Assembly (NCBI RefSeq): GCF_002897035.1
Contig: NZ_BAUX01000003.1
Span: 1-64,000, forward strand
DNA length: 64,000 nt
Origin: Methylopila sp. Yamaguchi
GTDB taxonomy: Bacteria > Pseudomonadota > Alphaproteobacteria > Rhizobiales > Methylopilaceae
Direction of reading: 5' to 3'
Positions 3,795-54,944 of this stretch are shown here, piece after piece (within the stretch, counting starts at the first letter, position 1; each line of letters opens with the position of its first letter). Below the pieces are notes generated by a model. The model saw only the letters and a list, made by a program, of their open reading frames with translations. It made no database searches and was not told where the DNA came from. The position numbers and the translations under genes are program-made.

Positions 3795-6093
<2,299 letters not shown>

Positions 6094-49696: not shown

Positions 49697-51252
49697 CGCT
49701 CCGATGTCTCCGTCAGCTCGAGATTGGCCGCGCACCAGGCGGCGAGGTCGGCGAGGTCGGGATGGGCGAGGTTGGCGGCGAGCGCCCGTCGCACCCGCGG
49801 GATGTTGCCGAGGTAGCCCGGCTTGCCGTCGCGTTTGGCGAGCCGCACGAAAATGCCGAGGATCTTGGTCGCTCGCTGCGCGCCCATGGTGGCGTAGGCG
49901 CGGGCGAAGGCCCGGGGGTCGAAGCCGGGATCGGCGCGTCGCCGCCGCTCGAGGTAGCGGGCCGCAAGCGCGAGCTCGAGCCCGTCGGGCATGTCGACCC
50001 GGGCGTCCTGCAGCAGCGAGACGACGTCGTAGGCCGGCGGGCCGAACACCATGTCCTGGAAGTCGAGCACGCCGAGCCGCTGCAGCCCCTCCCGGTCGTC
50101 GCGCCAAGTGAGGTTCGGCGAGTGGTAGTCGCGCAGCGTCCAGGTCGCGGGCTCGTCCAGGATCGGCTCCAGCGCGGCCGCCCAGAGCGCGCGGAACTCC
50201 GCCCGCGCCTCGGGCGCGGGAGCGGCGCCCGCCACATGCGGCATGTACCAGTCGAGCAGCAGGTCGACCTCGACCAGCATCGCCGACAGGTCGTAAGGCG
50301 GCACGCTGTAGAGCTCGCGGCCGACCGGCAGCTCCGTCGGCGCCGAACGGCCGTGGAGATCGGCCAGAAGCTCCACCGCAACCTCGTAGCGGCTGGCGAT
50401 CGGCTGGCCGGCGGCGACCGGCTCGTGGCCCAAATCCTCCACAAGCAGGAAGCCGTTGGCGAGGTCCTGCGCGTAGATCTCGGGCGCGCCGTAGCCGAAG
50501 GCGCGCAAGGCGTTGGCCACGGCGACGAAGGGCTTCACGTCCACCGCGAGGCGGGCGAGCGTCAGGTAGCTCTTGCCGTCGTAGAGCGCGGGACCGTGGG
50601 CGCGCGGCGGGGCGTCCATTAGGATGGCCGTGCGGTCGCCGAGCGTCAGGCGCTCGTAAAGGCGGCTCGAGGCGTCGCCTTGCACGTGGGCGCGGGCTGC
50701 CTCGCCCCAGCCGGCGGCGTCGAGGAAGCGCCGGCCGTCGCGCAGGCGCGCCAGCCGATTGCCGAAGGCGCCGTAGCCCGACAGCCGCGCCTTGCGGGAC
50801 TCCGGGCTTGAGCCGAGATCGAGCCTGAGGTCCAGCCGGTCCGGCGGCAGGTCTGCGCCGATGCGGTCCGGCCACTCGACGAGCACGATCGCGTCTTCGC
50901 CGGCCTCCTCCCAGCCGAGCTCCTCCAATTCTTCGGGACCGGTGAGGCGGTAGAGGTCGGCGTGGACGATCGCGCCGCGGGGCAGGTCGTAGATCTGGAG
51001 CAGGGTGAAGGTCGGGCTCGGGGCCTCGAGCTCCGGGTCGCCGGCGCGCGCGCGCACCAGGGCGCGGGCGAAGGTGGTCTTGCCGGCGCCGAGGTCGCCC
51101 GACAGCGTCATCAGGTCGCCGGGGCGAAGGATGCGGGCGACGTCGGCGGCGAGCGCGGCGGTCGCGGCTTCGTCGACGAGCGCGAGCTCCCAGGTCTCGA
51201 CGCCCGGCGTCGCCTTGCGCGCCGCGCCGATCATGCTGGCCGGGCCCTTCAT
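49693..51252 (-). CDS. TsaE - AmgK-like phosphotransferase fusion
   Basis: A 519-residue two-domain protein. Residues 15-160 are TsaE, the ATPase subunit for tRNA threonylcarbamoyladenosine (t6A37) synthesis, with P-loop [21 protein letters not shown] and the T-rich segment [14 protein letters not shown]. Residues about 185-519 are an aminoglycoside phosphotransferase fold of the AmgK type, which phosphorylates N-acetylmuramate, with the catalytic loop [13 protein letters not shown] and [25 protein letters not shown]. The fusion is known in Rhizobiales. It overlaps the DivL-like stop upstream (ATGA) and the MurU-like start downstream, so all three genes are co-translated. Why t6A synthesis is tied to peptidoglycan recycling is unclear. 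Confidence 0.92.
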
Positions 51253-53678
51253 TCCGCGGCGGCCGCGATCTGGCCCGCGGGGAAGCGGCAGGTGACGGTG
51301 GTGCCGCGGCCGAGCCCGCTGTCGATCGTCACGCGGCCCCCGTGCAGCTCCACGAAGGAGCGGACGATCGACAGGCCGAGGCCGACGCCGCGGTGGCGGG
51401 CGCCCGCCGTGCGGCTTTCGAAGCGGTCGAAGACCTTCTCGAGCATCTCCGGCGGAATTCCGGAACCTCGGTCGGAGACCTGGAACACAACGGCGTCCTC
51501 CTCGCGGCGCGCGGACAGCCGGATCGGCAGGCCGGGCTGGGAGAACCCTATGGCGTTTGCAAGCAGGTTGAACAGCACCTGGCGCACGCGCTTGCCGTCG
51601 GCGACGAACGAACCGACCGAGGGCGCGACGTCGATCTCGAGCCGGAGCCCGGCTTCCACAAGCCGGTCGCGCACGCCTTCGACGGCGGCGTCGATGCTCT
51701 CGCGCACCTCGACTGGGCCGAGCTCCAGCTCCATGGCCCCGGCGTCGATGGTGGTGAGGTCGAGGATGTCGTTGATGATCGCGAGCAGGGCGGCCGAGGA
51801 CGACAGGATGTGCTCGACGTACTCGCGCTGCTTCGGCGAAAGCGCGCCTAGCCGGGCGTCGCCCAGCAGCTGTCCGAAGCCGATGATGTTGGTGAGAGGC
51901 GAGCGCAGCTCGTAGGACACGTGGTTGACGAAGTCGTTCTTGAGGCGGTCGGCGGCCTCGAGCGCTTCGGCGCGCTCGCGCAGCGCGCGCTCGACGTTCA
52001 CGCTCGCGGTCACGTCGGTGAAGGTCGCGAGCGTGCCGCCGTCGGGCAGCGGCAGGGTGATGACGTCGACGATGCCGGCGCGATCGCGGTCGATGCGGGC
52101 GATCACCGGCTGGCGCTCGTCGGGCATGGCGGTCATCGCCATCTTAAGCTGCCGCCAGAGCTCGACGTCGGCGTGGCGCGCGCTGCAGGCCTTGAGGATC
52201 TCGTCGGCGTGCGGACGGTTGGCGAGGTCGGCCTCGGACAGGCGCCAAAGGCTGGCGAACGCCGGGTTGTGCAGCGTGAGCCGGCCGTCGGAGGCGAACA
52301 CCGCGACGGCCTCCTGCAGATGGTCGAGCGTCTCGCGCTGCACCTTGGACAGCGCGTTGAACCGGCTCTCCAGGGCGATCTTCTCGGTGACGTCGTCGAA
52401 CAGGTAGGTGACGCCGCCCTCGGGGTTCGGCGCCGCGACCACGCGCAGCGTGCGGCCGTCGGGCAGGTGCCACCAGTGCTCGCGCGGCTCCATCGCACGG
52501 TAGGCCTCGTGCAGCTCGGCCTTCCACTTGCGGAAATCGGCCTCTTCGGGGAGCCGGCGCTCGGCGCGCAGCCGGTCGAGGATCGTCGCGTCGCTCGGGC
52601 CGCCGTCGAGGAAGGCGGGATCGAGCGCCCAGAGCTGCCGGTAGGACTGGTTGTGGAAGGCGAGCGCGCCGTCCTTGCGGAAGATCGCGACCGCGGTCGC
52701 GAGTTCGTCGAGCGTCCGGCGGTGCGCCTCCATCTGGCGCGACAGGTCGGCGCGGACGTCCTCGAGTTCGGAGACGTCGACCGCGATCGCGGCCGAGCCG
52801 GATGGCGAGGGCGCCTCGACCACGTCGAAGATGCGGCGGGCGCCCGCGAACACCGCGGGCGCGCGGCGGCGGAACACCTGGCCGGCCTGGTTGGCGCGGG
52901 CGGCGGCGGCGCGCAGCGGCTGGTCGAGGAACTCCGCGCCCTGCTCGACCGCGGCGGCGCCCGTCCTGGCCTCGACCGCGCGGGCGTAGGCCTCGTTGGC
53001 GTAGGTCAGCCGGCCTTCGGCGTCGCGGATCCAGACCGGCTGCGTCAGGGACTCCAGCAGGGCGGTGGCGCGGGCGAGGGCGCCGGAGAGCTCGGCGTTG
53101 CGGTCCTCGATCTCGGCCCGGGCCAAGCGCTCGCCCGTGACGTCGCGCAGACGCAGCACCACGGCGGCGCCGACGGGGCGGCCTTCGGTCTCCAGGTGGC
53201 CGCCCTCGGGCGTGCGCAGCATGAGGCGGAACGGTTCGCCCCGCTGGCGGAGCGCGTCCAACCGGGCGTCGAGGGCGCGGGCGGCGTCGGGTTCGAGCCA
53301 GGTTCCGAAGGCGAGCAGGCGGCGGCCTGCCGGCATGCCGGTCAGGCGCGCCGGGTCGCCGACCAGCTCCGGCGCCTCGGCGCCCGCCCGCCAAATGATC
53401 ATCACCTGCGGCTCGGTCGCGACCAGCGCTTCGGAGCGATCGAGCCGCGAGCGCAGCTCGGCGATCTCGGCGGCTGCGGCGTGCTGAGCCTCGGCGAGGC
53501 GCTGGCGCGTGCGCAGGAACAGGATGGAGGTGAGGGCCGCCACGAACAGCGCGCCGAGAAAGAGAGAGAGGGCGGCGGTCTCAGGCGCTCCGAAGGGCGC
53601 GGCCGCAGCCGGCTGGGCGAAGAGCGCCGCCGTGACGACGACAAAAGGAGCGACGGCGCGGCGCGGCCGGTCGTGCAT
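51249..53678 (-). CDS. divL: DivL-like PAS-domain pseudokinase (tyrosine at the H-box)
   Basis: An 809-residue sensor-kinase relative. The N-terminal hydrophobic region ([17 protein letters not shown], then [20 protein letters not shown]) gives two membrane segments, followed by several PAS-like modules (for example [81 protein letters not shown]). The dimerisation box reads FVNHVSY589[16 protein letters not shown]: where kinases have histidine there is tyrosine, as in DivL, a cell-cycle regulator of the CckA-CtrA pathway. The ATPase domain is complete ([50 protein letters not shown]). Start MHDRPRR is placed at 53678 by signal position. The 207-bp gap upstream has four GANTC sites. Confidence 0.8.
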
Positions 53679-53747
53679 CTGGTGAAGCCCCCGTCGGTGC
53701 GGCGTTCGCCGCGAAAGGCGCGCCATACGCCCCGCGCGCGCCCTCAC

Positions 53748-53831
53748 GAATCAGCGTCACCATACCCTTCGGGGGGAGTCGCCCCCAAGAGTCCATAACG
53801 AGTACGCGAACGAGAAAGGCGCGATTGAGTC
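53748..53831. promoter_or_regulatory. Cluster of four GANTC (CcrM) sites upstream of the DivL-like gene
   Basis: GAATC at 53748, GAGTC at 53776, 53789 and 53827, within 84 bp and between 70 and 153 bp before the start codon. The base composition of this genome would give roughly one GANTC per few hundred bases, so the grouping stands out. The second site lies in the loop of a small GGGGG/CCCCC hairpin. Confidence 0.7.
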
Positions 53832-53885
53832 CTTCGGGAGACGGTATTATGGCGACGCGCGCGGCTCCGCGGCGGCGCTTTTTCC

Positions 53886-54944
53886 TCAGATCCAGCCCAT
53901 CAATTCGCGGCGCACCACGTGCTCGATCACGCGCATGCCCTCCTCGCCGTCGTTGAGGCAGGGAATGGCCGCGAAGTTCTGGCCGCCGTTGTGATGGAAG
54001 ATCTCGGCGTTCTCGCCCGCGATCTCCTCCAGCGTCTCCAGGCAGTCGGCGGTGAAGCCGGGCATGCAGACCGCGAGGTTGCGCACGCCCTGCTTGGCGA
54101 GCGCCTCCACCGTCTTGTCGGTGTAGGGCTGCAGCCACTCCTCGGGGCCGAAGCGGGACTGGAAGGTGATCCGGAAGCGGGTTTCGTCGAGCCCGAGCGC
54201 CTCACGCATCAGCCGCGCCGTCTTCTGGCACTGGCAGTGGTAGGGGTCGCCCTTCGCGAGATAGGACTGGGGAACGCCGTGGAACGAGGCGAGGATGACC
54301 TCCGGCTCGAACGACAGTTTCGCCACTTCCTTCCGCAGCTGGCTGGTGACCGCCTCGATGTAGACGGGGTCGTCGGCCCACGGCGGCGCGACCCTGAGCA
54401 CAGGCTGCCAGCGCATGGCCTTCAGCGCGTCGAACGCCTTGTCGCAGACGGTGGCGGAGGTCGCCGCGGCGTACTGCGGGTAGAGCGGCACGAGGAGGAT
54501 GCGGTCGCAGCCCTCCTTCTGGAGCGCTTCGATGCGGGACGGGATCGAAGGGTTGCCGTAGCGCATCGCCCAGTCGACGACGAGGTTCGGCGCGGTCGAC
54601 GCGAGCGACGCCGCAAGCTTTTCGGATTGGCTTCGCGTGATGGTGCGGAGCGGGCTCTCGTCGCGCTCCTTGTTCCAGATCGAGGCGTAGTCCTTGCCCT
54701 TCCGGCCGGGCCGGGTCGTGAGGATGATCCCGTTCAGCAATGGCCACCAGATGATCCGAGGCGTCTCGATCACGCGGCGGTCCGACAGGAACTCCTTGAG
54801 GTAGCGCCGCATCGACCAGTAGTCGGTGCCGTCCGGCGTGCCGAGGTTCACGAGCAGCACGCCGATACGGCCGACCTTCACCGGCGGATGATCGGCGGGC
54901 AGGCGCACGGCGCGCATGTCGCCCTGGCTGAAGGGGGCGTTCAT
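53886..54944 (-). CDS. hemH: Ferrochelatase
   Basis: HemH inserts ferrous iron into protoporphyrin IX, the last step of heme synthesis. The 352-residue protein has VGVLLVNLGTPDGTDYWSMRRYLKEFLSDRRVIETP at the start, the catalytic histidine in VILASFHGVPQSYLAKGDPYHCQCQKTARL, and the C-terminal iron-site glutamate in the CLETLEEIAGENAEIFHHNGG segment. Cysteines CQCQ follow the HGVP motif as in other alphaproteobacterial forms. It stands between the K+ channel gene and the DivL-like gene on the same strand, with gaps of 108 and 207 bp. Confidence 0.96.
   Translation of the reverse strand: MNAPFSQGDMRAVRLPADHPPVKVGRIGVLLVNLGTPDGTDYWSMRRYLKEFLSDRRVIETPRIIWWPLLNGIILTTRPGRKGKDYASIWNKERDESPLRTITRSQSEKLAASLASTAPNLVVDWAMRYGNPSIPSRIEALQKEGCDRILLVPLYPQYAAATSATVCDKAFDALKAMRWQPVLRVAPPWADDPVYIEAVTSQLRKEVAKLSFEPEVILASFHGVPQSYLAKGDPYHCQCQKTARLMREALGLDETRFRITFQSRFGPEEWLQPYTDKTVEALAKQGVRNLAVCMPGFTADCLETLEEIAGENAEIFHHNGGQNFAAIPCLNDGEEGMRVIEHVVRRELMGWI

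Follow-up and report, generated by a model that had tools for sequence, protein, structure and literature searches.

The gene divL is preceded throughout the Hyphomicrobiales by a putative promoter of fixed layout, in which GANTC sites occupy constant positions around a sigma70-like -10 box. What is conserved is a comb of two to three sites locked to the predicted -35, -10 and +1 positions, and not the group of four sites that had drawn attention to this locus in the 64-kb stretch of DNA analysed here (referred to as the window). On the strength of this arrangement, divL probably has a core promoter under CcrM/GcrA control, with GcrA-dependent transcription linked to passage of the replication fork.

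Anatomy of the putative divL promoter

The four sites were confirmed where the original prediction had placed them on the forward strand, as GAATC at 53748 and GAGTC at 53776, 53789 and 53827. They lie among the following features of the window (start and end, strand, description):

4957..6075, minus strand, ccrM (GANTC adenine methyltransferase), matching solved CcrM
51249..53678, minus strand, divL, 809 aa from the ATG at 53678; a pseudokinase in which Tyr replaces the phospho-acceptor His
53679..53885, hemH-divL intergenic gap of 207 bp, housing the divL promoter
53748..53752, minus strand, GANTC site 1 (GATTC), presumed start point of divL; with its flanks (TGATTCG) it forms the extended GcrA motif
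53759..53764, minus strand, -10 box TATGGT, 6 bp before site 1; TANNNT kept in the family and order alignment columns
53776..53780, minus strand, GANTC site 2 (GACTC), within the -35/-10 spacer and separated by 11 bp from the -10 box downstream
53783..53789, minus strand, -35 region CTTGGGG, a weak element with order-wide conservation at this position
53789..53793, minus strand, GANTC site 3 (GACTC), adjoining the -35 region and offset by 13 bp from site 2 on its upstream side
53827..53831, minus strand, GANTC site 4 (GACTC), farther upstream
53886..54944, minus strand, hemH (ferrochelatase), upstream neighbour of divL; other genes stand there in most relatives

Along the divL strand, the elements follow one another as GACTC (53827), 33 bp, GACTC (53789) adjoining CTTGGGG, GACTC (53776), 11 bp, TATGGT, 6 bp, TGATTCG (53748), 69 bp and the ATG. 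The start point of divL was placed by spacing alone; if transcription starts at GATTC, sites 3, 2 and 1 lie at about -41, -28 and +1. The promoter elements appear sigma70-like, with a -10 box conserved as TANNNT and a weak -35 element. A strict sigma70 scan with the E. coli consensus gave no match at -35, and across the order a C/T-T-T/C-C pattern is kept at this position, with one T at 98% (column conservation). The extended motif YGAKTCK is fitted by site 1 and by none of sites 2-4. A small hairpin with one site in its loop, which had also been pointed out, was weak, at z -1.2 relative to shuffled sequences, and relatives do not share its sequence; it looks incidental. A terminator for hemH was sought in the hemH-divL gap and none was found.

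In the DivL protein, PAS repeats precede the HisKA and HATPase domains, and the Tyr replacing the phospho-acceptor His (in the stretch at 589) was invariant among 16 orthologs. Its closest solved structure is Caulobacter DivL 4Q20 (E 3e-46, first of 43). A DivL from outside the order (L166) was considered as Caulobacter-derived and rejected, as it was not close when compared with the solved DivL. Within the divL coding region, two GANTC sites exactly 45 bp apart were observed in many order genomes (e.g. L063, L064, L072, L084), and this pair is explained by a conserved stretch of the DivL protein (ESRFNAL...ETLDSL).

The gcrA gene is located elsewhere in the same genome (C17:19354-19896) and was present in 18 of 18 family genomes; the DNA-binding and sigma-binding parts of GcrA match solved GcrA chains. 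The gap upstream of gcrA (L215 1410-1705, G000:C17) carries GANTC at 1428, 1554 and 1567; the last two are separated by 13 bp, a spacing also seen in the divL comb. Significance had been attached to the encoding of CcrM 48 kb from divL, a distance which carries none. Across the order, GcrA and CcrM were each found in 146 of 150 genomes; because both are near-universal in Hyphomicrobiales, co-loss of the sites with either protein is uninformative.

Conservation and specificity of the layout

Ahead of divL, TANNNT followed after 5-7 bp by GATTC was observed in all 18 family genomes, and in 15 of them the -10 box was also preceded, at 9-11 bp, by a GANTC. Site 4 kept its place only in the two nearest relatives. 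The neighbour upstream of divL is hemH in the window's two closest relatives, an HxlR-like regulator in others (L019-L020) and ahcY in many more (read from translated ends). The upstream gene thus varies while the layout persists at divL, and the array therefore travels with divL. A lack of conservation in close relatives would have told against the original prediction; instead, the sites were found at fixed promoter positions in close and distant relatives alike.

For the wider comparison, divL loci were taken from named genomes and from order genomes, and two anchored tests were designed against circular anchoring, one using the spacer site as anchor and the other the -10 box with its downstream site. 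The order loci are phylogenetically non-independent and include a few near-duplicates, so the counts are descriptive. Where loci were picked solely by GANTC-N10-TANNNT, a second GANTC was present no more than 14 nt after the -10 box in 72 of 73, compared to 0 of 3 for background anchors of the same form elsewhere in the loci. Where they were picked solely by the -10 box and downstream GANTC (n = 101), an upstream GANTC was observed at 9-12 bp in 72 and at 23-24 bp in 31; the remaining offsets together accounted for 12. Distances between GANTC pairs upstream of divL, which require no anchor, peaked at 13, 26-27 and 40-41 bp. The density of TGATTCG was 1.68/kb upstream of divL (where it occurred in 82 of 100 loci) compared to 0.015/kb elsewhere. 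The middle base of the spacer site varied (T 60, G 27, C 9 and A 2 percent). Of 121 loci, 12 were not anchorable, and 28 of the 109 anchored ones in the order lacked the spacer site. Among class loci outside the order (n = 28), the two-site layout was found in 1 and TGATTCG in 8.

In the genome from which the window is taken, the two-site layout occurred at two places, one of them divL, and TANNNT-N5-7-TGATTCG occurred at divL only. A search of 81 order genomes gave 31 matches to the two-site pattern (8 for the reversed-pattern control), and 20 of these 31 were directly upstream of divL. Two of the eleven remaining matches, in two families, were directly upstream of cckA (L222 and L234; G039 and G063), the gene of DivL's partner kinase; the other non-divL matches were about as numerous as chance would give. 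The cckA gene was also sought around five other TANNNT-N5-7-GATTCG places in the window's own genome and was not found there. In two related genomes (L229 and L230; G091 and G050), a pentapeptide-repeat gene is preceded by an identical two-site promoter-like element.

GANTC density and other clusters

The window holds 58 GANTC sites where 314 were expected from dinucleotide shuffles, and GANTC is thus about five times rarer in positions 1-64000 than dinucleotide content predicts. The actual frequency is about 1 per 1.1 kb, and the earlier estimate of one per few hundred bases was too dense. The 84-bp piece with four sites is the only such piece in the window (the maximum elsewhere being two), and about 0.2 four-site clusters of this length would be expected across the 4.42-Mb genome under a uniform rate, a figure subject to the caveat that GANTC may be commoner in intergenic DNA; the view that the cluster is unusual was thus upheld. 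Nor did the same density recur at many promoters, since at least four close sites were found at only about five places in the genome, out of about 11 places with GANTC triples in a whole-genome pattern search. These genome-wide counts come from pattern searches, and the search for triple clusters gave 21 matches against 15 for the reversed-pattern control. As the control also clusters, site density alone was set aside as a weak argument; it is suggestive and not decisive.

Other clusters were observed in the same genome (G000). Eleven GANTC sites lie within 300 bp in a gap between histidine kinase and rhodanese genes beside dnaA (L216 1491-1791; G000:C9, about 101490-101790); this cluster is partly conserved in the relative G013 and marks a possible origin region, and no consensus DnaA box was found in its stretch of sequence. 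On the 4.38-Mb main contig of G013, divL (2.68 Mb) and ccrM (2.72 Mb) are followed by gcrA (3.06 Mb) and by a GANTC cluster (3.38 Mb) that matches the dnaA-linked one; if this cluster is the origin, divL would be replicated in roughly the first third of replication. Seven sites in 106 bp were observed directly upstream of a Suv3-like helicase gene (L001 1501-1606; G000:C1:416128-416233), to which a G013 cluster near 3824325 is related. Four were observed upstream of an L,D-transpeptidase (YkuD) gene (L210 1507-1580; G000:C9:157106-157179), and G013 has one like it at 3321887. The string GAACGAATCGCGA is common to the YkuD-gene cluster and that at C1:416128.

Proposed control and comparison with known systems

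PMC7987155 describes GcrA as a sigma70-binding activator reading methylated GANTC near promoters, gives YGAKTCK/TGATTCG as its extended motif (a preference not seen in B. subvibrioides) and places divL in the GcrA regulon of both C. crescentus and B. subvibrioides. GcrA orthologs of Brucella and Sinorhizobium bind methylated GANTC (PMC3667746). At the divL promoter, CcrM would methylate three GANTC sites, one at the edge of the -35 region, one in the spacer and one at the start point. GcrA on sigma70-RNA polymerase would read these sites once methylated, the TGATTCG at the start offering the best match. GcrA would then promote open-complex formation, probably activating rather than repressing, and divL transcription would be coupled both to the abundance of GcrA and to the switch from full to half methylation at fork passage. 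DivL would in turn feed CckA and then CtrA. GcrA-dependent activation tied to fork passage is the most likely mode of action. With regard to the proposal that methylation state controls divL, a methylation-responsive promoter is well supported at the sequence level by the conserved fixed sites, and the four-site unit was given up, since two to three sites are conserved. A bolder and rather doubtful extension is that the comb around the -10 box defines a dedicated promoter class for the DivL-CckA branch in Hyphomicrobiales and acts as a coincidence sensor of joint methylation at the spacer and start sites, such that divL (and cckA in some lineages) would fire in a set window after fork passage.

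The sign of the methylation effect could be the opposite, by analogy with the methylation-repressed gcrA promoter of A. tumefaciens (PMC11514494). Methylation might then act directly on RNA polymerase as a repressor, with half methylation after the fork releasing the promoter and GcrA unneeded. This is unlikely, even though the GANTC sites overlap core promoter elements and the A. tumefaciens promoter, with six GANTC, was repressed in an E. coli host too (PMC11514494): what is conserved at the start point is TGATTCG, the extended motif of GcrA, and not just any GANTC, and GcrA activates divL in two Caulobacterales (PMC7987155).

It is less probable still that the conserved letters represent the site of another regulator or simply a good core promoter, their status as CcrM sites being secondary. 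A generic core promoter would not concentrate at divL, and two to three distinct GANTC sites reappear at constant distances while the middle base of the spacer site varies; conservation of the -10 box and of the -35-region T as strongly as the sites themselves is what such an explanation has in its favour. Chance clustering in AT-richer intergenic DNA has in its favour the triple clusters of the reversed-pattern control, and is contradicted by the order-wide conservation of position and by the concentration of the layout at divL, which leave it very little credence. Control of divL by CcrM and GcrA is the best explanation, and a probable one.

The conservation suggests that replication-driven methylation times a key cell-cycle regulator across the order. 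If so, the CtrA pathway would receive an epigenetic, replication-linked input at DivL in an order including Agrobacterium, Brucella and rhizobia, in which such control of divL was previously considered sporadic. Predictions at the level of single bases follow, namely which adenines and which start point. The results also indicate that regulation which per-promoter counts can miss may be picked up when GANTC sites are scored by their fixed distance from the -10 box.

Among the GcrA/CcrM promoters of Caulobacter, ctrA P1 has GANTC at about -28 and podJ P2 at -24, and transcription start sites that carry a GANTC in the -35/-10 interval switch on 40-60 min into the cell cycle (PMC4287350). The divL promoter resembles these in its GANTC between -35 and -10 (here about -27 to -23 if the start is GATTC), its sigma70-like -10 box and the presence of encoded CcrM and GcrA. 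It differs from ctrA P1 and podJ P2 in the gene concerned, in an extra site at the presumed start, often with a third at the -35 edge, and in a spacing fixed order-wide. The gcrA and repABC promoters of A. tumefaciens are, like that of divL, GANTC clusters at replication-linked cell-cycle genes of the same order; unlike here, the genes are different, methylation represses gcrA and, within the excerpts of PMC11514494, a fixed comb is not described.

Control of divL by GcrA and CcrM is already known in Caulobacterales, where the same gene is the target of the same regulator pair (PMC7987155). The survey in that paper, with one species per order, judged divL regulation likely in few orders only; it scored site number and motif quality regardless of location, whereas here a fixed layout was detected throughout Hyphomicrobiales. 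The Hyphomicrobiales-wide distribution, the fixed spacing that includes a site at the presumed start, and how strongly the layout concentrates at divL appear to be new, the layout being undescribed within the literature searched, which was partly accessible. The best reading of these comparisons is that a GcrA/CcrM-controlled divL promoter may be far more widespread outside Caulobacterales than the survey had suggested.
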